DNA from: Desulfolutivibrio sulfodismutans DSM 3696
GTDB taxonomy: Bacteria; Desulfobacterota; Desulfovibrionia; Desulfovibrionales; Desulfovibrionaceae
Reading direction: 5' to 3'
Assembly: GCF_013376455.1 (NCBI RefSeq)
Contig: NZ_CP045504.1
Span: 2,253,001 to 2,317,000, forward strand
Length of the DNA: 64,000 nt
In this document: positions 28,807 through 62,563 of the stretch, piece by piece
How the letters are laid out: the number at the start of each line of letters is the position of its first letter
Position numbering within the stretch: the stretch's first letter is position 1
The notes under the pieces: model-generated
What the model saw: the letters and a program-made list of their open reading frames with translations, nothing else
Told to the model about the DNA's origin: nothing
Database searches by the model: none
Position numbers and translations under genes: made by a program

Positions 28807-29084
28807 CCGCCCCTCCGCATCGCAGCCCTGCTCGGCCGTCGACCTGACGGCGCGCCGTGGCCGCGCCGCAATCCGGGCTGGCAGGCCGCCTTGACTTTGT
28901 ACCTTTCCGGGACAAACAATGCAACGCCGGGTCTGCCGCCAATCCCGCCCGGTCGCACGGCCTGGCCATTGCAGCGGGTTGCGGCTTGCCTCCGGACGGC
29001 GGCGAGGATAGGGTACAGGACACGAAAAAACCCAGGACCGGCAACCTGAAAACACGACCCTCAAGGTGGTAGCGAGCGTCCATC

Positions 29085-46093: not shown

Positions 46094-46395
46094 GGCTCCC
46101 CCTGGGATAGATGCTCGTATGTCCGCCTGACATTTCGGACGGTAAGCTACCACAGCGGACACCACTGGCAAGAAAAAAGTGTTGTGAAAAAATGAACAAT
46201 GCAGCAAGGACGCGCTTTTCCAGCCACCAAAACACATGTGAACGAAAAAACTTGTGACCCTCCCTTGACTTTCCCCTGGAAAGGGGCTTTGTAATCGACC
46301 ATAATAAGTGTCCGGACAGAGACTTACGCGTTTTGACGTCAAACCGTCATACCCCTACGGGCCGCGCGGCCCGAGGCGAGACACGGGAGGACCAG
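46094..46395. promoter_or_regulatory. Divergent promoter region of molybdopterin gene and nuoA
   Basis: A 302-base region between two outward-facing genes. It is AT-richer than its surroundings. A TTGACT at about 46266 followed 17 bases later by TTTGTA could be a nuoA promoter; the spacer holds a small CCCCT/AGGGG inverted repeat. Promoters for the leftward gene are not obvious. Confidence 0.4.
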
Positions 46396-46788
46396 ATGGT
46401 TTTCACCTGGCTGCAGGCGGCGCTTCTCATTTTCATTGCTGCTGGGCTGGCCTTCGCCGCAGGCCCCCTTCTGGGTTCCATCCTCCTGGCTCCCAAGGCT
46501 GTCGGCGGGGCCATAGGCGAGCCCTTCGAGTGCGGCATTCCCACCCACGGCAGTTCCCTGACCCGGTTCGGCATCAACTATTATTTCTACGCCATCGTGT
46601 TTTTGGCCTTCGAGGTGGACATTTTGTACCTGTTCCCCGTGGCCACCTGGTTCAATCATTCGGTCGGCTTCGCCCCGGTGTGGAAGATTTTGGTCTTCCT
46701 TGGCGTCCTGGGCCTGGCCGTCGTCTATTTCCAGCGCAAGGGAGTGTTCGAATGGCCCCGCAGGATCCAAATCTCGCCCCGTCCGTAA
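46396..46788 (+). CDS. nuoA: Complex I subunit NuoA
   Basis: A 130-residue membrane protein with three helices. GGGAGG precedes the ATG at 46396. The conserved loop and second helix are present: [15 protein letters not shown], then [20 protein letters not shown] with the Glu/Asp pair. It sits next to the quinone cavity. It is the first gene of nuoABCDHI, and nuoB begins inside its last 37 bases. Confidence 0.96.
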
Positions 46789-47321
46789 GCGGCATCGCAC
46801 CAGCGGCCACCGGCGTCGAGCCGGCGCTGGTGAACATGTCCCCGGTGCAACGCATCGTGGATGTGTGTCGGGCCATGTCCATCTGGCCCATGACTTTCGG
46901 CCTGGCCTGCTGCGCCATCGAAATGATGGCCGTGGGCATGGCCCGCTTTGACATCGCCCGTTTCGGGGCCGAGGTGTTTCGCCCATCGCCGCGCCAGTCG
47001 GATCTGATGATCGTGGCCGGCACGGTAAACCGCAAGATGGCCCCGGCCGTGGTGCGGCTTTACGAGCAGATGCCCGCTCCCAAATGGGTCATGGCCCTCG
47101 GGAACTGCGCCATTTCGGGCGGCCCCTTCAAGTGTCCGGGACAGTACGCCGTGGTCGAGGGCGTGGACAACCTCATCCCTGTTGACGTCTACGTGCCCGG
47201 ATGTCCGCCCCGGCCCGAGGCCCTGCTCGAAGGACTCTTCCAAATCCAGCACAAAATCACCGGCCGTCGGTGGTGGCCCGTTCCCAAGGGCATGCCCCTC
47301 GGCAAGGCGGAGGTCGCATGA
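46752..47321 (+). CDS. nuoB: Complex I subunit NuoB
   Basis: A 189-residue peripheral subunit carrying cluster N2. The adjacent Cys pair [11 protein letters not shown], the third Cys in [12 protein letters not shown] and the fourth in [11 protein letters not shown] are all present. The start at 46752 overlaps nuoA by 37 bases and has AGGGAG upstream; it yields a short 25-residue extension before the conserved core. NuoB passes electrons to quinone in concert with NuoD. Confidence 0.96.
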
Positions 47322-47857
47322 TCCCCGCATGGATATCCCAAATCGGCGCCAGTTGCGTGGTTCCCCTGGACCACGCCCGCACCGGGCAGATCGCCAGCCT
47401 GCTGGTTGACCGGGAAAAGATCGAGGACGCCTGTCAGGTGTTGTGGGATCAGGGCTATCATATCGAAAGCCTGGCCGCCTGCGACGTGCTGGAGGGGTTT
47501 GTGGTCCGGTATCACTTCGACCACTGGACCGAACCCGGCCGCCTGACCCTGCGGGTCAGCGTGCCCCGGGACGACGCGCGCATCCCCACCGTGTCCAAGA
47601 TCTTCCCCGGAGCGGATTGGCACGAACGGGAGTGTCACGACTTCCACGGCGTGGTCTTTACCGGCCATCCCAACCTGCACGCCCTGCTTCTGCCCGACGA
47701 CGGCACGCCGCCGCCGCTGGTCAAGTCCGAAAAGGCCCGCAAGAGCCGCACGGACGTTCTTCCTCTGGAATATCTCGTGGACTGCGCCCCCACCGCCGAG
47801 GGACAGGACGCCGCCAAACCCGCTTCCGGCGATGCCGGGGCACAGGCCAAGGGGTAG
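47318..47857 (+). CDS. nuoC: Complex I subunit NuoC
   Basis: A 179-residue peripheral subunit of the 30-kDa family. The signature region is [23 protein letters not shown] (here listed in part: [12 protein letters not shown]), followed by the LLLPDD segment. The C terminus after residue 150 is Ala/Lys-rich and not conserved. The ATG overlaps the nuoB stop by four bases. It is a separate gene, not the NuoCD fusion of Escherichia coli. Confidence 0.93.
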
Positions 47858-47862
47858 CCGCC

Positions 47863-49050
47863 ATGCGCGATCACACTGCGGCTGCCGCCGCATCCAAGCC
47901 CCCCGTGGACACCTCTTTGTGGGGCGATTCCTACGCCGCCAGATTTGAACCCGATCCCTCCGGGGAACGGATGATCGTCAACATGGGCCCCCAACACCCC
48001 TCCACACACGGGGTTTTGCGGGTCTTGCTGGAGCTTGACGGCGAATACATCGTCCGCGCCGAGCCCGTGCTCGGCTACATCCACCGCATGCACGAATGGA
48101 TGGCCGAAAATCGGACCTACGCCCAGTTCATCCCGAACATGGGCCGGGTGGACTATCTGCACGCCCTGGCCTGGAACTGGGCCTATGTGGGCGCGGTGGA
48201 ACGGCTGGCGGGCATGGAAGTGCCCGAACGGGCCGAGTACATCCGGGTCATCACCTGCGAACTGAACCGGATCAGCTCCCACCTGTTGTGGTGGGGGGCC
48301 TATCTGCTCGATCTCGGGGCCTTTACCCCCATCATGTACGCCTTCGACGACCGGGAACGCATCTTGGACATCCTCCAGATGGTCACGGGATCGCGACTGA
48401 CCTATTCGTCGTTCACCTTCGGCGGGGTGTCCATGGATCTGCCGCCGGAATTTATTCCCAAGACCCGGGAATTCATCGCCACCCTGCGCGGCAGGCTGCC
48501 CATGTTCAGGGATCTGGTCACGGACAACGGCATTTTGCTCGGCCGCTGCGAGGGCATCGGCATCCTTGATCTGGACACCGCGCGCCGCTACGGGGCCACG
48601 GGGCCCTGCCTGCGCGGCTCCGGACAGCCTTACGACGTGCGCCGGGCCGAGCCGTATTCCATCTATGACCGTTTCGACTACCGCATTCCCACGGAAACCG
48701 CCTGCGACGCCATGGCCCGGTACTTCGTGCGCTTGTCCGAGATCGACGAGAGCCTATCCATCGTGGAGCAGGCCCTGGACAGCATCCCCGACGGCCCCAT
48801 TCAGGGCAAGGGTCCGCGCAAGATCCGGCCGCCCAAGGGCGAGGCCTGCTTCGCCGTGGAGGGCGCCCGGGGGAAAATCATGGTCATGGTGCAAAGCGAC
48901 GGAGGCCCCAATCCGTACCGGGTCAAGCTGCGCGCCCCAGGCTTCTCCAACCTGAGCCTTTTCGCCGAGTTGGCCCAGGGAACGCTTTTGTCCGACGCCG
49001 TGTCCATCCTGGGCAGCCTTGACCTCGTCATCCCGGAGATCGACCGATGA
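47863..49050 (+). CDS. nuoD: Complex I subunit NuoD
   Basis: A 395-residue peripheral subunit of the 49-kDa family, related to hydrogenase large subunits. NMGPQHPSTHGVLR near residue 42 is the family signature and contains the quinone-site His. YIHRMHEWMAENRTY and DVRRAEPYSIYDRFDY are also conserved. The hydrogenase metal-binding Cys are absent, as expected for complex I. AAGGGG precedes the ATG at 47863; nuoH overlaps by four bases. Confidence 0.96.
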   Translation: MRDHTAAAAASKPPVDTSLWGDSYAARFEPDPSGERMIVNMGPQHPSTHGVLRVLLELDGEYIVRAEPVLGYIHRMHEWMAENRTYAQFIPNMGRVDYLHALAWNWAYVGAVERLAGMEVPERAEYIRVITCELNRISSHLLWWGAYLLDLGAFTPIMYAFDDRERILDILQMVTGSRLTYSSFTFGGVSMDLPPEFIPKTREFIATLRGRLPMFRDLVTDNGILLGRCEGIGILDLDTARRYGATGPCLRGSGQPYDVRRAEPYSIYDRFDYRIPTETACDAMARYFVRLSEIDESLSIVEQALDSIPDGPIQGKGPRKIRPPKGEACFAVEGARGKIMVMVQSDGGPNPYRVKLRAPGFSNLSLFAELAQGTLLSDAVSILGSLDLVIPEIDR

Positions 49051-50030
49051 GCATGACCCTAAGCCTCGCCGATCCGTTGGTGCGCCTCATTTTGGCCCTG
49101 GTCGGCATTTTCGCCTTCGTGGCCCTTAACGGGCTTGTCCTGGTGTATGTCGAACGCAAGGTGGCCGGCTTCTGCCAGCGCCGCCCCGGACCTCTGCACG
49201 TCGGGCCCCAGGGGCTCATCCAACCCATTGTGGACGCCCTCAAGCTGGTGGGCAAGCAGCTCCTGACGCCCCCCAAAGGCGACCGCGTGCTGTTCTGGGC
49301 CGCCCCGCTTCTGGCCTTTCTGCCCGTGGCCCTGTGCTTTTTGCCGCTGCCCTTCGACGCCAGCCTGAAGGCCATCGAATTGAATCTCGGACTGGTGCTG
49401 ATCCTGGCCTTTTCCGGGGTCAACGTCATCGCCCTGTGTCTGGCCGGATGGGGTTCGGGCAACAAGTGGGGCATCCTGGGCGCGGCCCGGGCCGTGGCCC
49501 AGTCCGTGGCCTACGAGGTGCCGCTTTTGTTGTCGGTCCTGGCCGTGGCCTTCATGTCCGGCTCCCTGGATCTGTTCGTCGTGACCGAGTCACAGGGCGC
49601 CTGGCCCTGGCAATGGTACGCCTTGAAAAACCCCTTGGCCTTCCTCATTTTCATCGTCTGCGCCGTGGCCGAGACCAACCGCGCCCCCTTCGATCTTCCC
49701 GAGGCCGAATCGGAACTGACGGCCGGGTTTCATACGGAATATTCCGGCATGGGTTTCGGTCTGTTCTTTTTGGCCGAATACGCCAATATGATCGTGGTCA
49801 GCGGCGTGGCCGCCGCCCTGTTTCTGGGCGGCTACCAGGGCCCGGTGGCCTCCGGGATCTGGTGGTTTCTGGCCAAGCTGTACGCCATCCTGCTGTTGAT
49901 CATCTGGTTGCGTTGGACCTATCCCCGGGTCCGCTTCGACCAGCTCCTCAATTTAAGCTGGAAGCGGCTCACCCCCGTCGCCCTTCTTGTCTTGGCTGGC
50001 ACGGCTATTGCCGTTCGCCTGGGAGGATAG
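49047..50030 (+). CDS. nuoH: Complex I subunit NuoH
   Basis: A 327-residue membrane protein with about eight helices. LVYVERKVAGFCQRRPGP and the quinone-site loop AETNRAPFDLPEAESELTAG are diagnostic; EYANM and RWTYPRVRFDQL follow. It anchors the peripheral arm and forms the quinone tunnel. It is separated from nuoI by three bases. Confidence 0.97.
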   Translation: MSMTLSLADPLVRLILALVGIFAFVALNGLVLVYVERKVAGFCQRRPGPLHVGPQGLIQPIVDALKLVGKQLLTPPKGDRVLFWAAPLLAFLPVALCFLPLPFDASLKAIELNLGLVLILAFSGVNVIALCLAGWGSGNKWGILGAARAVAQSVAYEVPLLLSVLAVAFMSGSLDLFVVTESQGAWPWQWYALKNPLAFLIFIVCAVAETNRAPFDLPEAESELTAGFHTEYSGMGFGLFFLAEYANMIVVSGVAAALFLGGYQGPVASGIWWFLAKLYAILLLIIWLRWTYPRVRFDQLLNLSWKRLTPVALLVLAGTAIAVRLGG

Positions 50031-50033
50031 TCC

Positions 50034-50636
50034 ATGAGCGTTTCGAATTCCTTCAAAGATGCCTGGAACTACGCCAAAAGTCTGTTGATTGGGCTTGGCG
50101 TGACCGGAAAAAATTTCGTCAAACCGACCATCACGGTGGTCTATCCCTGGCAGCAGGTGGACAACCTGTCCACATTCAGGGGCCATGTGGAGCTGATCCC
50201 CAAGGACGACGACCTTTTCACTCCGCGTTGTGTTGCCTGCGGAGCCTGTGCGGACGCCTGCCCGTCGCACTGCCTGACCGTGGTCGCCCCGCCCAAAACA
50301 CCCAAGCCCAAAGCCGATGCCCCGGCTGCGGCGCTGGTCGAAGGGCGGGTCATTCCCAAAACCGAAAAAGCCGCAGCCCCGGAAAAATCTCGCGCCCCGG
50401 TGCAGTTTTTCCTGGACTATTCGCTGTGCAGCCTGTGCGGTCAATGTGAACGCGTCTGCCCTGCGAAATCCCTGCGGTTTTCGAACAATGTCTACCTCAC
50501 CGGCTCCAGCCGCGAGGATTTCAAGATCGACCTCCTGGCCAGGATGAAAAGCCAGGCTGCCGGGCAGTCAGCCCCGTCGCGTCCGAAATCTCCCGCAACC
50601 GCGCCGGTTTCTGAAAAAGAAAAGGAGCCCGCATGA
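50034..50636 (+). CDS. nuoI: Complex I ferredoxin-like subunit NuoI
   Basis: A 200-residue peripheral subunit with two [4Fe-4S] motifs, CVACGACADACPSHC and CSLCGQCERVCPAKS, for clusters N6a and N6b. The segment between them is longer than in typical NuoI and rich in Pro, Lys and Ala (about residues 85-120). With no NuoE, F or G gene present, this subunit is a likely entry point for electrons from ferredoxin or another donor. Its stop overlaps the next gene by four bases. Confidence 0.93.
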   Translation: MSVSNSFKDAWNYAKSLLIGLGVTGKNFVKPTITVVYPWQQVDNLSTFRGHVELIPKDDDLFTPRCVACGACADACPSHCLTVVAPPKTPKPKADAPAAALVEGRVIPKTEKAAAPEKSRAPVQFFLDYSLCSLCGQCERVCPAKSLRFSNNVYLTGSSREDFKIDLLARMKSQAAGQSAPSRPKSPATAPVSEKEKEPA

Positions 50637-51139
50637 GCAAATATCTGATCATGCTCGACCAAAATCGCTGTATCTCCTGTCACGCCTGTGAGGTACACTG
50701 TCAGATGAAAAACCGTGTCCCGGCGGATGCCCGGCTGGGCAAGCTGATCACGGTGGGGCCCGTCTCCCATGAAGGCAAGCCGCGCATGCTCAACCTGTTC
50801 ATGCCCTGCTTCCAGTGCGAGCGTCCCTGGTGCGTCACCGCCTGTCCCACCGGGGCCATGACCCGCCGGGAGAGCGACGGCATCGTCTACGTTCAGGAAG
50901 ACCTCTGCGTGGGCTGCAAGGCCTGCATCAAGGCCTGCCCCTGGCAGGTGCCGCAGTGGAACGACTACACCGGACGGGTGATGAAATGCGACTATTGCCG
51001 CGACCGCATTGATGTCGGGGAAAAACCCGCCTGCGTCGCGGGTTGCACGTCGCACGCCCTGTCCTTTGTTCGACCCAACGAGGCCTCGGCCCATACTCGC
51101 GAAGATTACGCCCGGCGCATCCTGTTGCGCCATCCCTAG
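50633..51139 (+). CDS. Four-cluster ferredoxin-like subunit (PhsB/HycB type)
   Basis: A 168-residue iron-sulfur protein with sixteen Cys in four groups: CISCHACEVHC, CFQCERPWCVTACP, CVGCKACIKACP and CDYC plus CVAGC. This is the four-[4Fe-4S] arrangement of DmsB, PhsB and HycB subunits, which carry electrons between a molybdopterin enzyme and a membrane partner. It is translationally coupled to nuoI (ATGA overlap). No signal peptide, so it is cytoplasmic. The molybdopterin enzyme that diverges from the same operon is the obvious candidate partner. Confidence 0.92.
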   Translation: MSKYLIMLDQNRCISCHACEVHCQMKNRVPADARLGKLITVGPVSHEGKPRMLNLFMPCFQCERPWCVTACPTGAMTRRESDGIVYVQEDLCVGCKACIKACPWQVPQWNDYTGRVMKCDYCRDRIDVGEKPACVAGCTSHALSFVRPNEASAHTREDYARRILLRHP

Positions 51140-51193: not shown

Positions 51194-51933
51194 CCTGCAC
51201 ATTTCCTCGGCTATTCGCCCGTCCTCCAGGGCAGATGCCCCATTGGGACCGGGTTGCTTTCGGATCGACATCTCAGCCCTGCTCCCGGGGCATGCCGCCT
51301 GATGTGGCGCAAGCCCGCTTTTTTTACGCTGGAGCATGGCGCCTTTCCGTGTTGAACGGTATACGTGATAAATTTCACATAGCAGCTCCCCGTTTCTCTT
51401 GAAAACAAGGTGCTTTCACCAGTATCTCTTGAGAAAAAAAGAACTTGAAAACACTCTTGACAGTTTCCCCCACCCGATGCTTTATGGGGAAACTTCAGAG
51501 GTTGCGTCTGCATGCAACGTGCGTTGCATTGCAGAGCGTCAACAGGGCGATCCCCGCTTCCCGCGCCATGCAAAAGGCGCAAGTGCGGAGGAATTGGCCC
51601 ACGGAGTCGTCTGAAAAGGTTTGACCACCACTTTTCAGGCGGATATCCCACGGAATGAGGCTTTCGTCTTGGAATGGACCGGAATCAGGCGCGACGCGGC
51701 GGGGAATCCGCGTTGCGTGGCATTTCGGGACTCCCCTGGGAAAGAATTCCGTGGCGTCGCCGGGCAGGGCAGGGCCTGGCGGCATGGGCGAGACACCGGC
51801 GCCTGATGGATTGCGATGCGGGTCTGCCGGGCAGGCAGGGCAACCCGGGCTGTTTCGTCGGCCGGGACCGGTTCCCGGAGGCGTGGGCGGAGAAAACCGA
51901 GAACGGATGAACGTGCAAGCAAGGAGGAGTGAC
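51194..51933 (+). promoter_or_regulatory. Long leader upstream of TauE-type exporter
   Basis: About 740 bases with no convincing gene. A TTGACA at about 51457 with TTTATG 18 bases on is a possible promoter. At 51512-51529 is a perfect operator-like palindrome ATGCAACG-TG-CGTTGCAT, with further GTTGC/GCAAC half-sites next to it. The word CTCTTGA occurs three times between about 51398 and 51460. Downstream an imperfect stem CGCGACGCGG/CCGCGTTGCG could form in the leader RNA. Confidence 0.45.
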
Positions 51934-53085
51934 GTGCGCAATTCCAGAAACATTTTTTTGGTACTTGGCGTCATGGCTGCGGTCATGTGCCTGTGGCTGG
52001 AGCCGGCCTGGGCTGACAAGCTGTCCGACGCCATCGCCAAGGCCCCCCAGGGCACGGAGGCGGGGCAGATCGATCCCAGCAAACCCACCGGCTTCCTGGG
52101 CATCGCCGGCGCGCCCCAGGTGAACATGATCCTGGCCTTCGTGTGGGCCGTGTGGGTCGGCTGGATTTTCTCCACCGTGGGCGCCTTCGGCGGCGTCATG
52201 GCCGGTGTGGGCCACATCTCCGTGTTCGGTTTCGGCAACTACGCCAAAGGCTTCAAAACGACGGCCCCCGAACTGAACAAGTTGGTCACGGACTCCATCC
52301 GGACCTCCAACCAGTGGTTGGTGGGGCTTTCGGCGCTCATCTCCTCCTGGAACTACTACCGCATGGGCCGTCTGGTGCTGCCCCTGGCCGTCGCCCTGGG
52401 CGTTGGCTCAATCCTGGGAAGCTGGGGCTCCGTCCAACTGACGGCGGGCAAGGTGTCCTTCTCCTCCTACCAGGGTTACTTCGGCTTGTTCGTCCTGGTT
52501 CTGGGCTGTTACCTGTTCTATGAAACCACCCCGGCGGGGCAGGCTGGCAAGCAGAAGACCAAGGCTGCGGTCAAGGCCTTCGAAGAAACCGTCAAAAAAC
52601 AGAAATCCGGCGAGAAGGTGGATATCAAGTCCCTGGGCGTGAAGACCACCTCGTTTAGCCTGACCAAGGTGAGCTTCACCTTCTACGGCGTGGAATTCTC
52701 CTTCAATCCCATCATCCCGCTTTTGGGCGGCATCGTCATCTCCGCCGTGGCTGCCTTTTTGGGCGTCGGCGGCGGCTTCATCCTGGTGCCCTTCCTGACC
52801 AGCGTGGCCGGCCTGCCCATGTACCTGGCCGCCGGCACCTCGGCCCTGGCCGTGTTGGTGTCCATGATCACCTCCATCTCCTCCTTCATGGGTGGCGGCA
52901 CGCCCATTGACTGGACCCTGATCGGCCTGGAGCTGGTGGGCATCGTGGTCGGATCGGTCGTCGGTCCCAAGACCTCCAAGTACATCCCCGACATCTGGCT
53001 GAAGCGCCTGTTCATCGTCCTGGCCCTGTACGTGGGCATCGACTATCTGCTGCGCGGCTTCTTCAACATCAAGATGTTCGGCTAA
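51934..53085 (+). CDS. TauE/SafE-family sulfite/organosulfonate exporter
   Basis: A 383-residue membrane protein. The GTG at 51934 is chosen because AAGGAGG lies seven bases upstream; an ATG at 51907 lacks this. The N-terminal hydrophobic segment ends in EPAWADK and may be cleaved or be the first helix. Two TSUP repeats can be seen: STVGAFGGVMAGVGHISVFG and AAFLGVGGGFILVPFL, separated by a cytoplasmic Lys/Glu-rich loop (KQKTKAAVKAFEETVKKQ). It should export sulfite, sulfonate or a related anion, which fits a sulfate reducer. The gene is followed by a strong terminator. Confidence 0.88.
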   Translation: MRNSRNIFLVLGVMAAVMCLWLEPAWADKLSDAIAKAPQGTEAGQIDPSKPTGFLGIAGAPQVNMILAFVWAVWVGWIFSTVGAFGGVMAGVGHISVFGFGNYAKGFKTTAPELNKLVTDSIRTSNQWLVGLSALISSWNYYRMGRLVLPLAVALGVGSILGSWGSVQLTAGKVSFSSYQGYFGLFVLVLGCYLFYETTPAGQAGKQKTKAAVKAFEETVKKQKSGEKVDIKSLGVKTTSFSLTKVSFTFYGVEFSFNPIIPLLGGIVISAVAAFLGVGGGFILVPFLTSVAGLPMYLAAGTSALAVLVSMITSISSFMGGGTPIDWTLIGLELVGIVVGSVVGPKTSKYIPDIWLKRLFIVLALYVGIDYLLRGFFNIKMFG

Positions 53086-53142: not shown

Positions 53143-53182
53143 GGCCGACGACGACACACCCTTCGTCGTCGGCCTTTTTTTC
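53143..53182 (+). terminator. Rho-independent terminator of TauE gene
   Basis: A perfect 12-base stem GGCCGACGACGA/TCGTCGTCGGCC with an eight-base loop, followed by eight T. Confidence 0.93.
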
Positions 53183-53259: not shown

Positions 53260-53898
53260 ATGGAATATTTGTCTCACGCCTCTCACCTGATCGACGCCTT
53301 CCTCATCTTTTTCTTCCGCATTCCGGACAGCGCGGCTGTCGGTTTTTATGTCGGTTGCGCCTGTCTGGCCGCCATGGTCGTGTTTGTGGGCGACATCAGC
53401 CAGGCCCTGGCCCACAGGTTCAATCTTTCCCATTTTCAGTCGCAGACCCGGGACATGGTGCATCTGCACAACCTGTCCATCAAGGCCCTGCGCCAGGGCG
53501 ACAAGGAAAACTACAAGGCCGCCAACAAACTGGCCAACGACACCTTCGGCAAGTCCTTTTTCACGCGGGCGGCCCTTTTCACCGTGTCCATCTGGCCCCT
53601 GCCCTTCGCCATGGGCTGGCTGGCCGAGCGTTTCCAGGGGGTAGACATCCCCCTGCCCCTGCTGGAAAAGACCGTCGGCTATAACGCCGTGTTTTTGCCC
53701 GTCTACATCCTGACGCGCATCGCCTATTCGCGAATCAAACCGAAAATCGGATTCCTGCGCCGTCTGGACCCGGCCCTGGGCCCTCCCCCGGAGGATCAGG
53801 AGGAACCCATTCCCTGGCTTGATGTGATCAATGAGGCCATGCCGCCCAAAAAAAAGGGCAGGAAAAAAACGGCGGATGTTTCACCCGACGCGGGGTAA
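53260..53898 (+). CDS. Membrane protein of unknown function, 212 aa
   Basis: Three hydrophobic segments are visible (about residues 8-42, 100-120 and 138-152). Between the first and second lies an amphipathic helical hairpin, QSQTRDMVHLHNLSIKALRQ and GDKENYKAANKLANDTFGKS. This layout, a helix, a cytosolic coiled hairpin and then further helices, recalls DUF106/Oxa1-type insertases, but the match is not firm. The tail is Lys-rich (KKKGRKK). It stands between the TauE terminator and the PhnD-kinase operon and is probably its own transcript. Confidence 0.7.
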   Translation: MEYLSHASHLIDAFLIFFFRIPDSAAVGFYVGCACLAAMVVFVGDISQALAHRFNLSHFQSQTRDMVHLHNLSIKALRQGDKENYKAANKLANDTFGKSFFTRAALFTVSIWPLPFAMGWLAERFQGVDIPLPLLEKTVGYNAVFLPVYILTRIAYSRIKPKIGFLRRLDPALGPPPEDQEEPIPWLDVINEAMPPKKKGRKKTADVSPDAG

Positions 53899-54132: not shown

Positions 54133-55065
54133 ATGCGCCGCCTGAGCCTTTTATTAGTCGTGATTCTGGCCCTTGCGGGCTTTGGCTGCAGCGAGGAAGA
54201 ACCCGCCTTTACGGTGAATCTGGGCAGGCGCGTGGAGACCTCCGTGTCCGTGCCCAAGCGGGCCGTGACCTACGCCTATCTGCCCCAATACGCCCACACC
54301 GTCTCCTACGAACGCCACCGCCTGCTGGTGGAATATTTGCAAAAGGCCACAGGCCTGCCCATCCGCCAGATATTCCCCGACACCTTCGACGAGCACGTCA
54401 AGATGGTGGAGCGCGGCGAAATCGACATCTCCTTCTCCAATCCCTTCGTGTACATCCGCATGGCCGCCACCGGGGCCAGGGCCTTTGCCCGGATCATCGA
54501 GCCCTCAGGGGCTCCCGAATTTTACAGCCAGATCATCGTGCGCAAGGAGAACCGCAACATCGAAAAAATCACGGACTGTCGCGGCAAACGCTGGCTGGCT
54601 GTGGACCCCTCCTCGGCGGGAGGGTATCTCTATGCCCTGGGGGAATTTCTCGACAACGGCATCCGCCGTGAGGACTTCGGCGAAATCGCCTTTGCCCCCG
54701 GTCCCGGCGGCAAGCAGGAGAAGGTGGTCATGGCCGTCTACGCCGGGGCCTACGACATCGGTTCCGTGCGCGACGGGGCCCTGTCCCTGCTCAAGGACAA
54801 GATCGACCTGTCCCAGATCCGCATCCTGGCCGAATCCAAACGCTACCCGGGTTGGGTGTACGCCCACCGGCCGGGACTTGATCCGGAAGTGGTGAACAAG
54901 ATCTCCCGGGCCATGTTCGCCCTGTCCATGGAACGCCCGGACGATGCGATCATCCTGCGCACGGCAGGCATGCGAGGCATCATTCCGGCCGTTGACGCCG
55001 ACTATGCCCCCGTGCGGGAACTGGCCACGAAACTCGGCCTGGAAGCCCTGGAGGCCATCCGGTAG
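54133..55065 (+). CDS. PhnD-like periplasmic binding lipoprotein
   Basis: A 310-residue protein with a lipoprotein signal (VVILALAGFGCSEE; lipidated Cys at about 19). The domain is PhnD/type 2 periplasmic binding: YAYLPQYAHTVSYERHRLL, then DEHVKMVERGEIDISFSNPFVYI and WLAVDPSSAGGYLYA. Such proteins bind phosphonate, phosphite or phosphate, or serve as sensor partners. No transporter ATPase or permease is adjacent. Its stop codon shares a base with the GTG of the sensor kinase gene, so the most likely role is ligand presentation to that kinase. Confidence 0.87.
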   Translation: MRRLSLLLVVILALAGFGCSEEEPAFTVNLGRRVETSVSVPKRAVTYAYLPQYAHTVSYERHRLLVEYLQKATGLPIRQIFPDTFDEHVKMVERGEIDISFSNPFVYIRMAATGARAFARIIEPSGAPEFYSQIIVRKENRNIEKITDCRGKRWLAVDPSSAGGYLYALGEFLDNGIRREDFGEIAFAPGPGGKQEKVVMAVYAGAYDIGSVRDGALSLLKDKIDLSQIRILAESKRYPGWVYAHRPGLDPEVVNKISRAMFALSMERPDDAIILRTAGMRGIIPAVDADYAPVRELATKLGLEALEAIR

Positions 55066-57140
55066 TGCGCGTCCTGGACAAGCTCAAATTCAGCACCAAG
55101 ATCAATCTGGGCTCGCTGTTGATCGTGACCCTGATCGCCCTGCCCCTGGCCTTCGTGGTCAGCCGCATGGCCGCTGACGCGCTGATCGACGAGACGAAAA
55201 AACGTGGGCTTGTCATCTCCGAGAACCTGGCCTCCCGGGCCGCCGACTCCATGCTGGCCATGGATCTGTTGCGCCTGAAGAACATGGTGGACGAATACAA
55301 GGGCGTGCAGGACATCGTCTACGCCTTCATCACCGACCGCGACGGCAACGTCATGGTCCACACCTTCGTCCAGGGCTTTCCCGTGGAGCTCCTGGCCGCC
55401 AACGAGGCCGACGACGCCACCACGTCCAACGTCCGCCTGATTTTTACCGGACGGGACTACATCTACGACTTCGCCGCCCCCATCATGATCGTGGGGGCCC
55501 GCTTCGGCACCGCCCGGGTGGGCCTGTCGCGCACCCAGACCCAGAACTCCGTCAATCGCCTGGTGTTTTTCATCTTCACCCTCTCGGGCGCGGCCCTGGT
55601 CCCGGCCATCCTGTTCAGTTCCCTGTTCGCCCGGCAGGTCACCCGGCGCATCGGACTTTTGCGGGAACATGCCGAGGAGGTGGTCAAGGGCAACCTGGAC
55701 ATGCGCACCGGCCCCGTCGTGGCTGCAAACTGCTGGGAGATCATGAACTGCGATCTGACCCACTGTCCGGCCTACGGCGACACCCGCAGGCGGTGCTGGT
55801 ACCTGGCTGGGACGTTGTGCCCCGATTGCACCGACCCCGAGGACGGGGACAAGGAGGAGTCGTGCAAGAACTGCCCGGTCTACAACCGCAACAAGGGCGA
55901 CGAGATCCAGGATCTGGCCGAAACCTTCGACGTCATGGCCTTAAGCCTCAAGACCCACCTGGAGGAACTCAAGCAGGCCGAGGGCGTGCTCACCCGCCAG
56001 GAACAACTGTTGCGCACCATCCTGGACGCCACCCCCGATTACGTGTGCCTGATCGGGGACAATCTCAAATACCTGTCCGTGAACAAGGCCTTTGCCGACT
56101 ATGTGGGCCGCTCGGCCCACGACATCGAGGGGCTTTCGGAGTTTGACCTGTTTCCCGAGGCCGAGGCCAAGATCACGCGTGAGGAGGATCTGCGCGTGGT
56201 GCGCACGGGCCTGCCCTTTGACCGCGAAAAACGCGCCCGGCGAGGCCAGCGGGACATGTGGCTGCATGTCGTGCGGGCCCCGGTCTTCGACAAGGACGGG
56301 CGGGTCATGGGGCTCTTGCGCACGGCCCGGGACGTAAGCCAGCTCAAGCTCTTCCAGGAACAGCTCATCCAGTCCCAAAAGATGGAATCCGTGGGCAAGC
56401 TGGCCGGGGGCGTGGCCCATGAAATCAACACCCCCTTGGGCGTGATTTTGGGATATGCCCAGCTCCTCCAGGAGGAAGTGGACAAAGACAGCCAGATATA
56501 TGAAGATTTAAAAATCATGGAAAAGCAGGCCAAGGTCTGCCGGAAAATCGTGGCCGATCTCCTGGGGTTTTCCCGGCAGACGGACAGCGCCAAGTTGGAG
56601 ATGTGTTTCAACAACTCGCTGATGGAGGCCATCAGCCTGGTGCGGCACACCTTCGGACTGGACAAGGTCTACATCATGACCGATCTGGATGAACGCATGC
56701 CCATCATCTACGGCGATCCGGAGAAGCTCAAGCAGGTGTGGATCAACCTCCTGACCAACGCCCGCGACGCCATGATCGAGGGCGGCGGACTGCTTTTGGT
56801 GCGCTCCCGCCTGGATTCTCCGGCCCAGAAGGTGACGGCCTGGTTCGCGGACACGGGATCGGGCATCGACTCCGGCAATCTGCAAAAGATTTTCGATCCG
56901 TTTTTCACGACCAAGCCCGTGGGGCAGGGAACGGGCCTCGGGCTGTCCGTGTCCTTTGGCATCATCGAGGATCACGACGGCTCCATCACCGCCCAAAGCC
57001 CCGTGCCCAAGGGTTTTTTCAACCAGGACGCGGTGGAGGCCCCGGGACGCGGCCCGGGTACGGTCTTTGTCGTGGATCTTCCCCTGGATCATGCGGAAAC
57101 CCTGGAAGCTGACCACGCTTTGGACAAAGGAAGGAAGTAA
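55065..57140 (+). CDS. Membrane sensor histidine kinase
   Basis: A 691-residue protein that starts with GTG overlapping the previous stop. Order: transmembrane helix 1 (about 14-34), a CACHE-like periplasmic sensor, transmembrane helix 2 (about 165-190), HAMP, a Cys-rich segment ([16 protein letters not shown] ... [12 protein letters not shown] ... CKNCP; nine Cys at about 224-270), PAS (about 310-425), HisKA with the phospho-His in [13 protein letters not shown], and an ATPase domain with [18 protein letters not shown] and [11 protein letters not shown]. It should phosphorylate the receiver encoded next. The Cys-rich part resembles 'two-CW' segments and may bind metal or sense redox state. 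Confidence 0.93.
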
Positions 57141-57503
57141 ATGGCCAACATCATTGTCTTAGACGACGTCATCGATGCCGGAGTGCTCATCAAGCGCATC
57201 CTGGAACGAAAAGGGCACAGCGTCACGGTCTTCACGGAAGAGGAGGAGGCCCTGGCGCACATCGGCAAGAACAAGCCGGACATGGCCATCCTGGACATCA
57301 AGCTCAAAAAGATGACCGGCGTGGAGGTTTTGGAAGAAATTAAAAAACGGTCGCCCGCCACCCGGGTCATCATGCTCACGGGCTATCCCACCCTGGAGAC
57401 AGCCCGGGAATCGGTACGCCTGGGGGCCTGCGAATACTGCGTCAAACCCATCGACAAGGACGAACTGGAACGCAAGGTGACCGAGGCCTTGGAAAACACT
57501 TGA
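57141..57503 (+). CDS. Single-domain response regulator
   Basis: A 120-residue receiver domain beginning directly after the kinase stop codon. The phospho-acceptor is in MAILDIKLKKMTG; the acidic pair is in IIVLDDVIDA (one acid less than the usual DD-E set is not obvious); Thr is in IMLTGYPT and Lys in YCVKPIDKDEL. No output domain is attached, so it must act through protein contact, perhaps with the PEP-synthase-like protein that follows. Confidence 0.92.
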   Translation: MANIIVLDDVIDAGVLIKRILERKGHSVTVFTEEEEALAHIGKNKPDMAILDIKLKKMTGVEVLEEIKKRSPATRVIMLTGYPTLETARESVRLGACEYCVKPIDKDELERKVTEALENT

Positions 57504-57526
57504 ACCGGCAAACGGGAAGACGCGAC

Positions 57527-60058
57527 ATGTCCCTCACCCAGCTTTTCCGTCACTGGACCTACCAGATTTTTGCCCCGGGCATCCTGTTGCGTGAGAAATA
57601 CAACGCCTTCAAGGAACTCTTGCGCTACGACGACCTGTGCCTGGACATCATCGCCGAGATCGAGGACATCCACTACGGCAACGAGCATGCCGACTGGGCG
57701 CGCATCGTCTGGCTCTGCAAGCGGCTAAGCTCCGCCGTGGAGCATCTCACGGCCGAACTGACGCTTTTGTCCCCGGCCAAGTACGTGGATCTGCCCGAAT
57801 ACGCCCGAAAGATCGATTTCTACGTGCGCATGGCCCTGGACGTGCCCGTGCCCGACATGTCCCCCCCCTACCTCCTGAGCCTGGCCGAGGCCGCCGCACA
57901 CCCCGAGATGGTGGGCGGCAAGGCCGCCGCCCTGGGACGGCTCCACGCCGACGGCGGCATCCCGTGTCCGCCGGGCATCGTGGTCACGGCCGGGGCCTTC
58001 CGGTATATCCTGGAGGCTTCGGAACTGCGGCCCAAGCTCGACGCCAAACTGCGCAAGGTGATCCTCTCCAAACCCGACGAAATGGCCGGACTGGCCGCCG
58101 AGCTGCGCCAGATGATCCTGTCCATCCATGTCCCCGAGGACATCGCCGGGCCCCTGCGCCAGGCCGCCGAGGACATGGCCCGGGTCGGAAACGGGTTTTT
58201 GGCCGTGCGCAGTTCGGCCCTGGCCGAGGACGGACAGGCCTCCTTCGCCGGACAATACGAAAGCGTGCTGTCCGTCAAACCCGAAGAGGCGATTTCGGCC
58301 TACAAGGCGGTTTTGGCCTCCAAGTACGGCCCCCGGGCCCTGACCTACCGGGTCTTAAATGGCCTGTCCGACGAGGAAACCTCCATGGCCGTCCTGATCA
58401 TGCCCATGATCGACGCCAAGTCGGCCGGCGTGCTGTACACCCTGGACCCGGGCGGACGGGTGCAAGGCCGCGAGGTCATGGGCGTCTATGCCGCCAAGGG
58501 CCTGGGAACGGCCGTGGTGGACGGATGCATCATCCCCGAATCCGTGGTCATGACCAGGGGAAAACACCCCCGCGTCCTGACCCGCGATCCGGACCCCGAC
58601 GCAACGGACGCCCCGGAGACGGCCCTGCCGGACGAGGCCGCCGAGCGGCTGGCGGAGATCGGGCTGCGCCTGGAATCGCTCTTCGGCCGTCCCCAGGATG
58701 TGGAATGGGCCATGGACAGGGCCGCCGACCTCTTCATCCTGCAAAGCCGGGACGTCAATGCCGATGCGGAAGGCGCCCTCCCGGGCGAGGCCGACGCCGA
58801 GGAGGCCTTCGGGGCCTATGTGGACGATGGCCAGCCGGACAAGGACGCGGCGGGCGATCTCCCCGCCCCCCTTCTGACCGACGGCGGGCGGGTATCGAAC
58901 GGCGTGGTCGCTGGACGGGCCGTGCATGCCCAGACGGTCATCGAGGTCTCGGCGATTCCAGCCGGGGCGATTCTTCTGACTCCCACGCTTTCACCAGCCC
59001 TGGCCCGGCTGGCCGGAAGGGTGTCCGGGGTGGTCGCGGCGGCAGGCAGCCGGGCGGGGCATTTCGCCTCGGTGGCCAGGGAGTTCGGACTGCCCGTGGC
59101 GGTCTTTGGCCCGGAAATCTTCACGCACATCCCTGACGGCCAGGAGATCACCCTGGACGCCGACGCCGGGAAGGTGTTCCCCGGCCGGGTGGAAAGCCTG
59201 CTCGCGGCGGCGGCCGATCCTACCCCCAAAAAGGCCACCCCCCAGGGAAACCGCCTGGAAAAAATCATCCCCCTGGTCGCCAGGCTGACGCTGACCGACC
59301 CGGAATCCCCGGATTTCGCCCCGGCGAACATGCGCTCGATCCATGACATCGTGCGGTTTGCGCACGAAAAAAGCGTAGCCGAGATGTTCTCCCTGGTGGG
59401 ACGCGGCGGACGTGGGCTGGCCACCGCCAAACGCCTGAAAACGCCGCTTCCCTTCACCATGTACATCCTGGATCTGGGCGGCGGCCTTTTCGAGGGCATG
59501 GAAGGCGCCCCCACCGTCACCCCGGGGGAGATCAAGAGCGCGCCCATGTGGGCCATATGGTCCGGACTGACCTCGCCCCTGGCCTCCTGGGACGACGACG
59601 CCCAGTTCGCGGACTGGGAGGAGCTCGACCGCATAAGCGCCGGCATCTTCAGCGGCAAGTCCCGGCTCCTGGCCAGCTATGCAGTCATTTCCGCCAACTA
59701 CGCCCACCTCATGATCCGCTTCGGCTATCATTTCTCGGTGTTGGACACCGTGTGCGGGCCTGAAGACAAAAACAACTACATCAACTTCCGTTTCAAAGGC
59801 GGCGGCGGCGCCCTGGATCAACGCCTGTCGCGCATCGAGTTCCTCTCCCGGGTGCTCACCCACTTCAGTTTCACGGTGACCATCAAGGGAGACATGCTCG
59901 ATGCCCGAATGGCCCGGGAAAACGAGGTCATCATCCAGAAACGGCTGGCCATGCTCGGCTACCTCCTGGCCCGGACCAAGCTCATGGACATCACCATGTC
60001 CGAGGCCACGGACATGCGGGCGTTGGTGGACGACTTCCTGGACAAGACCGACCGGTAA
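57527..60058 (+). CDS. PEP-synthase-like phosphotransferase, paralogue B
   Basis: An 843-residue protein from the ATG at 57527 (GGGAAG upstream); a TTG at 57500 overlapping the receiver stop is an alternative. Residues 1-115 are helical. An ATP-grasp PPDK_N domain spans about 125-410 (MVGGKAAALGRL, GIPCPPGIVVTAGAF, AVRSSALAEDGQASFAGQY, KSAGVLYTLDPGG, DVEWAMD...LFILQSRD). The phospho-His domain spans about 455-575, with His 512 in GSRAGHFASVAREFGLP. The last 270 residues (for example GYHFSVLDTVCGPEDKNNYI) replace the PEP barrel and resemble those of paralogue A. Seven bases separate it from the phosphatase gene. It probably moves phosphate from ATP to an unknown acceptor. Confidence 0.85.
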   Translation: MSLTQLFRHWTYQIFAPGILLREKYNAFKELLRYDDLCLDIIAEIEDIHYGNEHADWARIVWLCKRLSSAVEHLTAELTLLSPAKYVDLPEYARKIDFYVRMALDVPVPDMSPPYLLSLAEAAAHPEMVGGKAAALGRLHADGGIPCPPGIVVTAGAFRYILEASELRPKLDAKLRKVILSKPDEMAGLAAELRQMILSIHVPEDIAGPLRQAAEDMARVGNGFLAVRSSALAEDGQASFAGQYESVLSVKPEEAISAYKAVLASKYGPRALTYRVLNGLSDEETSMAVLIMPMIDAKSAGVLYTLDPGGRVQGREVMGVYAAKGLGTAVVDGCIIPESVVMTRGKHPRVLTRDPDPDATDAPETALPDEAAERLAEIGLRLESLFGRPQDVEWAMDRAADLFILQSRDVNADAEGALPGEADAEEAFGAYVDDGQPDKDAAGDLPAPLLTDGGRVSNGVVAGRAVHAQTVIEVSAIPAGAILLTPTLSPALARLAGRVSGVVAAAGSRAGHFASVAREFGLPVAVFGPEIFTHIPDGQEITLDADAGKVFPGRVESLLAAAADPTPKKATPQGNRLEKIIPLVARLTLTDPESPDFAPANMRSIHDIVRFAHEKSVAEMFSLVGRGGRGLATAKRLKTPLPFTMYILDLGGGLFEGMEGAPTVTPGEIKSAPMWAIWSGLTSPLASWDDDAQFADWEELDRISAGIFSGKSRLLASYAVISANYAHLMIRFGYHFSVLDTVCGPEDKNNYINFRFKGGGGALDQRLSRIEFLSRVLTHFSFTVTIKGDMLDARMARENEVIIQKRLAMLGYLLARTKLMDITMSEATDMRALVDDFLDKTDR

Positions 60059-60064
60059 CGCCCC

Positions 60065-61153
60065 ATGACGCGCCCCCCCCATGCCTACGAACTGACGTTC
60101 GTCACGCCGCATCTGGCCGTGGGACATGCGCCCATGACCAGGGAACAAATGGATTCCCTCAAGGCCCAGGGCATCGGCGCCATCCTCAACCTGTGCGCCG
60201 AGTTCTGCGATCTGCACGAGATCGAGTCCAAGGCCGGGTTTGAGGTCTATTATCTGCCCATTCCCGACGAACAGGCCCCTCCCCTGGCGGAGTTGGAGAA
60301 GGCCCTGGCCTGGATCGACGAGGCCGTCTATCTGGGACGCAAGGTGCTCATCCACTGTCGGCACGGCATCGGCCGCACGGGCACGGTCTTAAACGCCTAT
60401 CTGCTGCGCCGGGGCATGGGCCACAGCCTGTCCGCCCGCATCCTGAAGCCTTTGCGCTCCAAACCCACCAATTTCGACCAGTGGTGGACCATCCGGAAAT
60501 ACGGCCGGGCCAGCGGGCGGCTGACCATCCGCGAACCCACCCTGGAATCCAAGCATCTGGTCGATCTGGGACCGTTTTTCTACGACTATGAGGGCCTGTG
60601 CGCCCTGGCCGAGGAATACGCCCCGGAGGGGGTGCGCTGCGGCCGGGAGCATGTCCGGTGTTGCGCCACACCGGTGAGCCTGACGTTTATCGAGGCCGTC
60701 TACATCAGCCACGCCCGAAACGTGACCATGGCCAGCCAAATGCGGCTGACCGTCATCGACCGGGCCGTGGAGGCGGCCAGGCGGGAACGCGAGGCGGCCG
60801 CCAGGGAAAAACCCACTGCGGAGGAAGGGGAGTTCTGTCTGTCCGATGTCGGGGCCGTATGCCCCCTGGTCGAGGACGGAAAATGCCTGCTTTTCGAATA
60901 CCGCCCCCTGCAATGCCGCACCTTCGAGATCGCCGCCGAGGCCAAGGCCACCTTGTGGGAGACCTTGGGACCGGCCGTGGAGACCCTCTCCCGGCAGGCC
61001 TATTTCGCCTTCACCTCGGAACTGGACGAGGAACCGCCGCGCTTCGGGCTGCCCGACGTGGTGTCGGGCCGCTACGTGCAGACCTTCTTCCACCGGCTCT
61101 TGAAAAAATCCCCGCCGCCTGCTCCTGGTCGCACAAAACGCTCCCCGGGTTGA
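60065..61153 (+). CDS. Dual-specificity phosphatase fused to YkgJ-like Cys domain
   Basis: A 362-residue protein in two parts. Residues 10-150 form a dual-specificity/tyrosine phosphatase domain; the P-loop is VLIHCRHGIGRTGT (catalytic Cys 98) and the upstream Asp candidate is in LPIPDEQAPP. Residues 185-330 look like a YkgJ-type zinc- or iron-chelating domain: CGREHVRCC, then CPLVEDGKCLLFEYRPLQCRTF. The phosphatase could oppose the PEP-synthase-like protein encoded seven bases upstream. The fusion is unusual to me. It ends the five-gene operon. Confidence 0.83.
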   Translation: MTRPPHAYELTFVTPHLAVGHAPMTREQMDSLKAQGIGAILNLCAEFCDLHEIESKAGFEVYYLPIPDEQAPPLAELEKALAWIDEAVYLGRKVLIHCRHGIGRTGTVLNAYLLRRGMGHSLSARILKPLRSKPTNFDQWWTIRKYGRASGRLTIREPTLESKHLVDLGPFFYDYEGLCALAEEYAPEGVRCGREHVRCCATPVSLTFIEAVYISHARNVTMASQMRLTVIDRAVEAARREREAAAREKPTAEEGEFCLSDVGAVCPLVEDGKCLLFEYRPLQCRTFEIAAEAKATLWETLGPAVETLSRQAYFAFTSELDEEPPRFGLPDVVSGRYVQTFFHRLLKKSPPPAPGRTKRSPG

Positions 61154-61238
61154 CCGCCTCGGCGCAATGGCCCTACACTGCTTCTTTGCCGCTGCCGGTC
61201 TGCACCCCGGGGCGGACACCCTACGAAAGGAGCATGGC

Positions 61239-61613
61239 ATGGCACAGGATTTCCGCACCCTTCTCACGGAACTCGAACGCCCGGAAGGCGACGACGAGCG
61301 CTGGTTCGGGGACATCCGCATCGGGGACTGGTTTTATCTGTCCGTCCAGGCCGGCCCGGATCAGGAAAGCATCCCCCGGACCACGGTCGGTCCCATGGAC
61401 TACTCGGCCTTCGAGGTCTCTCTGCAGACCGTGCATGGCGTCATTTCCTACGGCAAATGGGGGGTGTGGGAGCAGTTGTCCACGATGCCCTGGGCGAATC
61501 GGTTCCACAAGGAGACGCCCATGCTCATGGTGGCGGGCGAGTTGCCCGTGGCCGAGGTGCAACGGGTCTACGAGGATCTCTTGGAATTTGCGCGCACCCA
61601 TCCGCTGCCCTGA
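61239..61613 (+). CDS. Conserved protein of unknown function, 124 aa
   Basis: AAGGAG lies seven bases before the ATG at 61239. A soluble alpha/beta protein with aromatic-rich segments (RWFGDIRIGDWFYLS, ISYGKWGVWEQLSTMPW). No family is recognised. It starts 85 bases after the phosphatase gene on the same strand and may be the last gene of that operon or have its own promoter. Confidence 0.75.
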   Translation: MAQDFRTLLTELERPEGDDERWFGDIRIGDWFYLSVQAGPDQESIPRTTVGPMDYSAFEVSLQTVHGVISYGKWGVWEQLSTMPWANRFHKETPMLMVAGELPVAEVQRVYEDLLEFARTHPLP

Positions 61614-61664: not shown

Positions 61665-61952
61665 ATGCGCATGGTGCTTGCCGTTGCCTGTGCGGCCCTG
61701 TCCGTCGCCATCCTCTCCCCCCTCCCCGCCTCCCTGGTCCAGGCCCAGCCGGAGGCCCCGGCCCTGGTCCGGGAACGCTGCACAGCCTGCCATAACCTGG
61801 CCCGGGTGCGGGAGAGGATCGGCAAAAACAGCGAGAAAGACTGGGTCGATTACATCGGGCGCATGCAAAAGCGCGGCGCCCGGGTGGATGACGCGCAAAA
61901 GGCGGCCATGGCCGCCTATCTCTCCACCCTGGCCGCAGGCGACGCCCTGTGA
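61665..61952 (+). CDS. Small monoheme c-type cytochrome
   Basis: A 95-residue exported protein with a signal peptide ending at SLVQAQ. One heme-binding CTACH lies at about residues 39-43. A Met in YIGRMQKRG could be the distal ligand. Size and layout suggest a small periplasmic electron carrier. The stop overlaps the GTG of the following membrane protein by four bases, so the two probably form an electron-transfer pair. Confidence 0.85.
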   Translation: MRMVLAVACAALSVAILSPLPASLVQAQPEAPALVRERCTACHNLARVRERIGKNSEKDWVDYIGRMQKRGARVDDAQKAAMAAYLSTLAAGDAL

Positions 61953-62563
61953 GGCGCCTTCGCGCGGCGATCCTTTTTCTCGCGCCCGTGGGGCTGGCCT
62001 ATGCGGCCCTGGCCCTGGCCCTGCCCCTGGTCTTCGCCGGGGAGGACCGGGTGCGCTCCGTGGCCAACCTGGCGGCGCTTGCGACCCTGCCGTGCATCCC
62101 GCTGCTGTTTCTCCTGGGCGTGCGAAGCCCGCTGGCGGTCCAGGCCCTGGGCCTTCCCCGGGCCTTTCGGATCCACAAGGCCCTGGGGCTGGCCTTTCCG
62201 GCCCTGCTGACGCTCCACGCCGGGCTCCATGTGTACCGCTTCGCCAAAGCCATGGGACTTTCATATCCCCTGGCCGCCCTGGCCGTCCCCAACACCTGGG
62301 AGATGGTTTTGGGTAAGGCGGCCCTGGCGCTGTTTTTTGTGGCCTGGGGCGCGGCGTGGCTTGGAACCTCGGGACGCCTTCCCCGCCGCATCTGGCGGCC
62401 CGCGCATCTGGCGGCGTACCTTGCCGCGCCTGCGGCCTTTGTCCACGCCCTGTTCCGGGGGGAGGACATGACCCGGGGCTGGCTCTTTGCGGTCTGGGTC
62501 GTGGCCGCCGCCACATGGCTCATGGCCGTGGGCTGGCGGGCCATGCGCTCCCGGTCTGCCTGA
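61949..62563 (+). CDS. Ferric-reductase-like heme b membrane protein
   Basis: A 204-residue protein with about six helices, starting with GTG at 61949. His residues suited to heme b ligation occur in RIHKALGL, TLHAGLHVYRF and RPAHLAAYLAAPAAFVHAL, the pattern of the Ferric_reduct transmembrane domain (also in MsrQ). No flavin domain is attached. It likely passes electrons across the membrane to or from the monoheme cytochrome encoded upstream. Confidence 0.82.
   Translation: MRRLRAAILFLAPVGLAYAALALALPLVFAGEDRVRSVANLAALATLPCIPLLFLLGVRSPLAVQALGLPRAFRIHKALGLAFPALLTLHAGLHVYRFAKAMGLSYPLAALAVPNTWEMVLGKAALALFFVAWGAAWLGTSGRLPRRIWRPAHLAAYLAAPAAFVHALFRGEDMTRGWLFAVWVVAAATWLMAVGWRAMRSRSA

Follow-up and report, generated by a model that had tools for sequence, protein, structure and literature searches.

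A 64,000-nucleotide stretch of the Desulfolutivibrio sulfodismutans DSM 3696 genome (contig NZ_CP045504.1; hereafter the window) carries an operon that is the counterpart, by gene order and domains, of the nitrate cluster published from two model strains of sulfate reducers. Its core is a run of five genes between 54133 and 61153, encoding a PhnD-like lipoprotein, a membrane histidine kinase, a stand-alone receiver, a dikinase-like phosphotransferase and a phosphatase, and these are preceded by genes for a TauE/SafE-family permease and a small membrane protein. Together they read as a sensor-and-switch system, one that probably uses an unusual enzyme of phosphate transfer to control how a sulfur compound is taken up. 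In the specific form that we favour, with a probability of roughly 45%, the operon would be an oxyanion-sensing two-component system with a post-translational output controlling uptake through TauE; we infer the ligand, the receiver–dikinase contact, the acceptor and the direction of control from synteny and published mutants. A preliminary description of this DNA had presented the five genes as a candidate new system, a claim that falls with the published counterpart: the cluster itself is already known.

Counterpart of the published nitrate cluster

Korte et al. (2014) described a ‘nitrate cluster’ comprising DVU0251–DVU0245 in Desulfovibrio vulgaris (DvH) and Dde_0597–Dde_0605 in D. alaskensis G20, listed in their Table 3 in the order TauE, hypothetical protein, PtxB/PhnD, kinase, receiver, PPDK_N protein and phosphatase (PMC4001038). 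All seven window genes follow this order, with DVU0251 corresponding to the TauE permease, DVU0250 to the small protein (which has no domain to compare), DVU0249 to the PhnD-like protein, DVU0248 to the kinase, DVU0247 to the receiver, DVU0246 to the dikinase and DVU0245 to the phosphatase. The receiver is listed at 360 base pairs (bp), against 363 in the window with the stop codon. Several features differ: the kinase is intact in the window and annotated as a pseudogene in DvH, the G20 cluster carries an extra DUF169 gene, and a PhsA-like enzyme and a ferredoxin that lie beside the window unit are in neither listing.

The published phenotypes tie these genes to nitrate. Insertions in most nitrate cluster genes gave nitrate resistance; isolated DvH mutants in 0246, 0247, 0250 and 0251 grew equally with and without 100 mM nitrate, so that DvH strains lacking the receiver or dikinase behave like those lacking the permease, and the isolated phosphatase mutant (0245) was still inhibited by nitrate (PMC4001038). 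If transcription starts at TauE, as the arrangement in the window would have it, insertions in the later genes could not simply silence the permease by polarity. In the pooled DvH test, 0250 (−5.82) and 0245 were strongly negative, and in G20 every listed cluster gene, phosphatase included, gave positive fitness (PMC4001038). On thiosulfate the G20 mutants are reported to be mildly sick (PMC4001038, citing unpublished data), and the study suggested that a thiosulfate transporter might be leaky. Searches of the open-licence literature turned up no later paper dealing with the cluster, and its locus tags appear beyond PMC4001038 only in a passing mention of DVU0251.

Sensor lipoprotein, kinase and receiver

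The five core genes are as tightly packed as first described, with spacings of −1, 0, 23 and 6 bases on the forward strand, and Pfam supports the domain calls for all five proteins, save for the phosphatase's YkgJ-like half, which falls below its cut-off (see below). The first gene (54133–55065) encodes a PhnD/PtxB-like binding lipoprotein (PF12974, 2e-58) whose lipoprotein cysteine, C19, shows conservation of 95% or more across 33 sequences. Its relatives in the PDB include PtxB (1.2e-14), ArrX (1.9e-8) and AioX (1.9e-6), and the NCBIfam TtrS model matches at 1.3e-6, far under its cut-off. The loop DPSSAGGY, in which D158, S161, A162, G163 and G164 are each conserved at 95% or more, is unlike the corresponding STSSH loop of PtxB, so the ligand is probably not phosphite.

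The membrane histidine kinase (55065–57140) comprises, by Pfam, sCache, HAMP, PAS, HisKA and HATPase_c domains, with a cysteine-rich insert between HAMP and PAS (residues about 223–272, window about 55731–55880). H452 and the six cysteines of the insert (223, 229, 234, 244, 267 and 270) are conserved in at least 95% of 43 sequences, and the N and G boxes are retained. No Pfam family of its own was found for the insert, which is possibly a metal or redox site. At two related loci the kinase match falls in two pieces (L149:6459–8093, overlapping, and L068:7730–9600), and these kinases are possibly broken, like the annotation of DVU0248.

The receiver (57141–57503; PF00072, 1.2e-24) is 120 residues long and stands alone: the domain search gave no output, DNA-binding or AAA+ domain. 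D8, D9, D52, T80 and K102 are conserved in at least 95% of 60 sequences.

A dikinase-like phosphotransferase without a PEP barrel

The fourth gene (57527–60058) encodes an 843-residue dikinase-like phosphotransferase (PPDK_N 7.8e-67, PEP-utilizers 5.1e-13), whose start agrees with the N terminus of relatives in the alignment. It consists of N-terminal helices, an ATP-grasp domain, a phospho-histidine domain (residues 478–548) and a C-terminal domain. R228, S229, E234, D235, E393, Q406, R408 and H512 are conserved, with R228, E393, Q406, R408 and H512 invariant in 19 sequences. H512 aligns with the TSHA histidine of solved phosphoenolpyruvate (PEP) synthases; it is the catalytic-type histidine by sequence and the predicted phospho-carrier. 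For the ATP-grasp and histidine domains, the best alignments are to PEP synthases, to rifampin phosphotransferase and to HpeI of Rhodococcus.

The C-terminal domain occupies 59207–60055. The preliminary description had noted the missing PEP barrel, and here it was right: neither Pfam nor two structural models show one in the C-terminal part, which rules out a metabolic PEP synthase as the identity of the protein. A Pfam search of the C-terminal 282 residues at E values up to 10 gave no match. Both models are alpha+beta, with mean predicted local distance difference test (pLDDT) scores of 81 and 80, and their order of strands and helices lacks alternating beta-alpha repeats. Against the PDB there was no clear match, the best rows being a Foldseek E value of 4.8e-3 and a VIA Z of 5.5 at 4.4 Å over 143 residues, a result that by itself neither proves a new fold nor disproves a barrel. 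H606, D607, R610, H613 and E614 are invariant in the 19 sequences, and when paralogues are included (91 sequences) both histidines and the aspartate of this HDxxRFxHE motif remain invariant, the arginine and glutamate nearly so. A search with the domain matched 107 of 297 genomes of the phylum.

Six further dikinase paralogues are present in the genome, one in the window itself (26173–29064, reverse strand) and the others in L139, L140 and L141, including three in a row in L140, where a receiver-bearing regulator (34%) lies some kilobases away.

Phosphatase

The fifth gene (60065–61153) encodes a dual-specificity phosphatase (PF22785, 8.6e-20; PF00782, 1.2e-13) with a cysteine-rich C-terminal half. 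Its CX5R P-loop reads HCRHGIGRTG, and C98 and R104 are invariant in 15 sequences. The YkgJ-like (CxxCxxCC) half reaches 16.5 bits against a Pfam cut-off of 23 bits, though C200, C266, C274 and C284 are invariant in the same number of sequences and C192 nearly so. Strong phosphatase matches (E under 1e-60) occur in 27 of the 297 phylum genomes. In 25 of these 27, dsrA scores over its cut-off, compared with 143/297 overall (Fisher p 4e-7, which ignores relatedness), and the two without dsrA are 67% and 62% complete.

Permease and small membrane protein

The unit extends further upstream than the five genes. The TauE/SafE-family permease (51907–53085, forward strand; PF01925, 2e-25) is given the start indicated by alignment with relatives, within an open reading frame that opens at 51655. 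It is followed by a small conserved membrane protein (53260–53898, same strand) that has no Pfam match, contains a single hydrophobic segment by a simple hydropathy scan and has S73, K82, N89 and R124 invariant in an 18-sequence alignment. An hhalign comparison with a 211-residue protein encoded after the TauE gene of Desulfogranum gave 58% probability (E 1e-4). Between the two genes lies a terminator-like hairpin with a 12-bp stem and a T tail (53143–53174, forward strand), found by pattern scan; such sites number 15, against 9.5 ± 3.7 in shuffled sequence, and this one is a consensus match only. As one conserved unit, then, the sensor pair, receiver and phosphotransferase/phosphatase hold up as first described, and the extent does not, the permease and small membrane protein having been missed. 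Their presence in the unit points towards control of anion uptake.

Conservation and rearrangement of the gene blocks

Conservation was assessed on 100 loci around full-length relatives of the dikinase, 20 of the best matches of one set and the best 80 of at least 542 confirmed matches of another; after removal of L063, L132, L118 and L134 as the same contigs as L039, L049, L050 and L058, 96 were left, and the 53 with enough flank (6 kb on the upstream side, 4 kb on the downstream side) were counted. These figures thus hold for close relatives of the dikinase, many of them related to one another, rather than for the whole family. A second sample consisted of 20 Desulfovibrionaceae loci, one per genus, picked for carrying the phosphatase; its locus L143 is apparently L061 over again. 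Alignment A1 covers 18/20 loci (L042 was truncated, L055 left out) and alignment A2 14/20 (L044 gave no match; L041, L047, L048, L049 and L055 were left out).

The phosphatase occurs somewhere in 48/53 loci and directly follows the dikinase on the same strand in 51/57 (the four repeat loci still included). A receiver is present in 38 of the 53 loci, the kinase in 23, the PhnD protein in 22, a PhsA-like oxidoreductase (of the window type or the TorD-fused type) in 15 and a sigma-54 regulator (at least 50% identical to that of L134) in 16. Strict five-gene order is kept in 13/53. In the one-per-genus sample, where the figure is conditional on the phosphatase, the five genes stand in order on one strand in 15/20 loci, are interrupted in one and are fewer in four; TauE is found in 11/20 and the oxidoreductase in five, in one of which it is truncated where the locus stops. 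The recurrence of the order in both samples places the grouping beyond chance, and a gene order specific to this strain is ruled out.

The genes also move as blocks. PhnD–kinase–receiver follows dikinase–phosphatase on the other strand in L054, L081, L084, L101 and L105; in L137 and L138 it follows without a change of strand. In L071, L075 and L080, TauE and the small protein are grouped with the dikinase, and matches to PhnD, kinase, receiver and phosphatase were not detected there. Thus three blocks, PhnD–kinase–receiver, dikinase–phosphatase and TauE–small protein, recur together in varied orders and orientations, and their meeting again after rearrangement argues for a shared function. Among other neighbours, a sigma-54 response regulator directly follows the phosphatase in L134:13574–16176, with polyphosphate kinase 2 next, and in L089:13547–14965, and in Desulfofustis glycolicus (L087:8122–9753) a hybrid-cluster (prismane) protein gene directly precedes the dikinase–phosphatase pair.

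Proposed mechanism and its rivals

In the reading that we favour, the periplasmic PhnD-type lipoprotein would bind an oxyanion (the likeliest being thiosulfate or a similar sulfur oxyanion) and work with the membrane kinase, which would phosphorylate the stand-alone receiver. The receiver would switch the dikinase-like protein, which may pass phosphate from ATP via H512 on to whatever acceptor its C-terminal domain binds, and the phosphatase encoded alongside would strip that phosphate off. The likely acceptor or effector is TauE itself or the small protein that partners it. The chain would open import of the anion, which the neighbouring PhsA-like enzyme, at loci that have one, would then reduce. 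If nitrate enters through the same TauE permease, resistance on loss of permease, receiver or dikinase would be expected, and an enzyme opposing the dikinase would be expected to give the distinct phenotype of the DvH phosphatase mutant. The most explicit version, in which the dikinase is gated by direct action of the receiver and, through ATP-to-histidine transfer and its unassigned acceptor domain, phosphorylates the transporter or its partner, with the phosphatase as the off switch, is somewhat unlikely as it stands.

Several observations weigh against the uptake-control reading. First, the link to the nitrate cluster is one of order and domains, and listed DvH lengths depart from those in the window (TauE 963 versus about 1179 bp, dikinase 2235 versus 2532). 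Second, the published phenotypes are not uniform (PMC4001038). DVU0248 is an annotated pseudogene whose mutant had, in preliminary data, little or no advantage, and the kinase input therefore appears dispensable for nitrate sensitivity in DvH. The pooled value for 0250 contradicts the isolated small-protein mutant; the G20 phosphatase mutant had a fitness of 2.08, contrary to an opposing role; and a rex mutant was equally nitrate-resistant, which makes indirect effects possible. Third, TauE at 50% identity or more lies near the dikinase in 13/53 loci (any TauE in 22/53), and 38/53 lack the oxidoreductase. Finally, 11/53 loci, all with the phosphatase, have no TauE, PhnD or receiver match, indicating that the dikinase–phosphatase pair has other uses, and the six paralogues have no PhnD, kinase or phosphatase relative in the stretches examined.

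The rival that survives best is that the dikinase, like rifampin phosphotransferase, phosphorylates a small molecule or polymer rather than a protein and that the phosphatase recycles it, the sensor pair merely switching the enzyme. Rifampin phosphotransferase and HpeI are among the best-aligned relatives of the dikinase domains, and the invariant and near-invariant residues of the HDxxRFxHE motif would suit an active site. The 11 loci with only the pair, together with the six paralogues, point to wider uses and so keep this account alive. Our survey of flanks for a shared metabolic gene covered parts of L134, L089 and L087 and the listing of L045 and L099. The published nitrate phenotype, by contrast, places the dikinase with the permease and the receiver (PMC4001038), and we regard a small-molecule or polymer substrate as unlikely.

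Less probable again is a mainly transcriptional output of the receiver through a separate partner, with dikinase and phosphatase linked for metabolic reasons. The related AioXSR and ThsSR systems control transcription, and the sigma-54 regulator of 16/53 loci, which directly follows the phosphatase in L134 and L089, could be such a partner. However, the receiver directly precedes the dikinase in the window and in 15 order-keeping Desulfovibrionaceae loci, and insertions in the two genes gave the same published phenotype (PMC4001038). Regulation of the PhsA-like oxidoreductase or its electron flow, with nitrate sensitivity arising from nitrate reduction rather than uptake, is very improbable: the enzyme and ferredoxin repeatedly adjoin the module, and chlorate toxicity in DvH works through tungsten/molybdenum cofactor genes and an aldehyde oxidoreductase (PMC10102598), but gross nitrate consumption went undetected in both DvH wild type and the rex strains (PMC4001038), and no such enzyme appears in Table 3 of that study, which lists high-fitness genes only.

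Neighbouring genes

A PhsA/PsrA-like molybdopterin oxidoreductase is encoded on the reverse strand at 44003–46342, divergent from the TauE-side genes. Its best solved relative is thiosulfate reductase (2vpw, 8e-99), and its best NCBIfam model is PhsA (3e-157), at 524.8 bits under the cut-off of 694; translated from about 46093, it shows no twin-arginine motif by eye. A ferredoxin, the DmsB/PhsB-like 4Fe-4S dicluster protein at 50633–51139 (forward strand; Pfam Fer4_11, 1.9e-23; NCBIfam dmsB, 1.2e-37, below cut-off), is its probable partner, and the oxidoreductase is probably a neighbour part of the unit. The two are kept apart in the window by a stretch (46308–50636) whose genes look, on inspection by eye, to be nuo-type. 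Elsewhere the oxidoreductase divergently adjoins ferredoxin and TauE (L059, L061, L065, L146, L153 and L154), and ferredoxin adjoins TauE in L143, L146, L151, L153, L154 and others.

Downstream, a 148-residue protein without a Pfam match (61167–61613) begins 13 bases past the phosphatase and occupies the same place in L039, L040, L060, L062 and L066. It is followed at 61665–62563 by a small cytochrome with a weak match to SorB (sulfite dehydrogenase) and a ferric-reductase-like membrane protein.

Implications

Oil fields are dosed with nitrate to keep sulfate reducers in check, an effect that two model strains evade when this cluster is mutated. The synteny yields a testable model of oxyanion sensor, receiver, dikinase/phosphatase, TauE permease and sometimes PhsA-like reductase, and names key residues. 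If true, the model would add a non-transcriptional output to two-component signalling and give a role to a large dikinase family with several copies in many of these genomes. It would also describe a bacterial relay, spread through sulfate reducers, that joins histidine–aspartate signalling to dikinase chemistry.

Comparison with known systems

Sensor pairs of this kind are already known. The AioXSR and ArrXSR arsenic-oxyanion systems share a PhnD/PtxB-like protein, kinase and regulator genes beside a molybdenum enzyme; their response regulators are DNA-binding, unlike the window receiver, and in the window the signalling genes are followed by those of a dikinase and a phosphatase. TtrSR and ThsSR share the PhnD-like type of sulfur-oxyanion sensing: the PhnD-like domains of TtrS and ThsS are implicated in tetrathionate and thiosulfate sensing, ThsSR adjoins a PhsAB reductase, and ThsSR, like AioXSR, acts on transcription (further background in PMC5908839, PMC5408782, PMC7117923 and PMC3431258). 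In TtrSR and ThsSR, however, the sensing domain lies inside the kinase and the regulator binds DNA, whereas the window has a separate lipoprotein and a stand-alone receiver.

With PEP synthase and pyruvate phosphate dikinase, the window dikinase shares the ATP-grasp and phospho-histidine domains and their conserved residues; it differs in lacking the PEP/pyruvate barrel, in its N-terminal helical region and in the domain at its C terminus. A PEP barrel is also absent from rifampin phosphotransferase and HpeI, which have ATP-grasp domains of the same family; the former shares the histidine domain as well. In rifampin phosphotransferase the matching parts lie at the chain ends (16–330 and 783–877 of 5hv1); in the window protein, by contrast, the histidine domain follows the ATP domain, with no acceptor domain between them and the extra domain last. 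HpeI acts on phenol-type substrates, and in plant starch metabolism a glucan dikinase is paired with a dual-specificity phosphatase. The parts of the operon belong to known families except for the dikinase C-terminal domain and the small protein; what is unusual is their assembly, in which a stand-alone receiver sits beside a phosphatase and a dikinase bearing this C-terminal domain, next to a permease.

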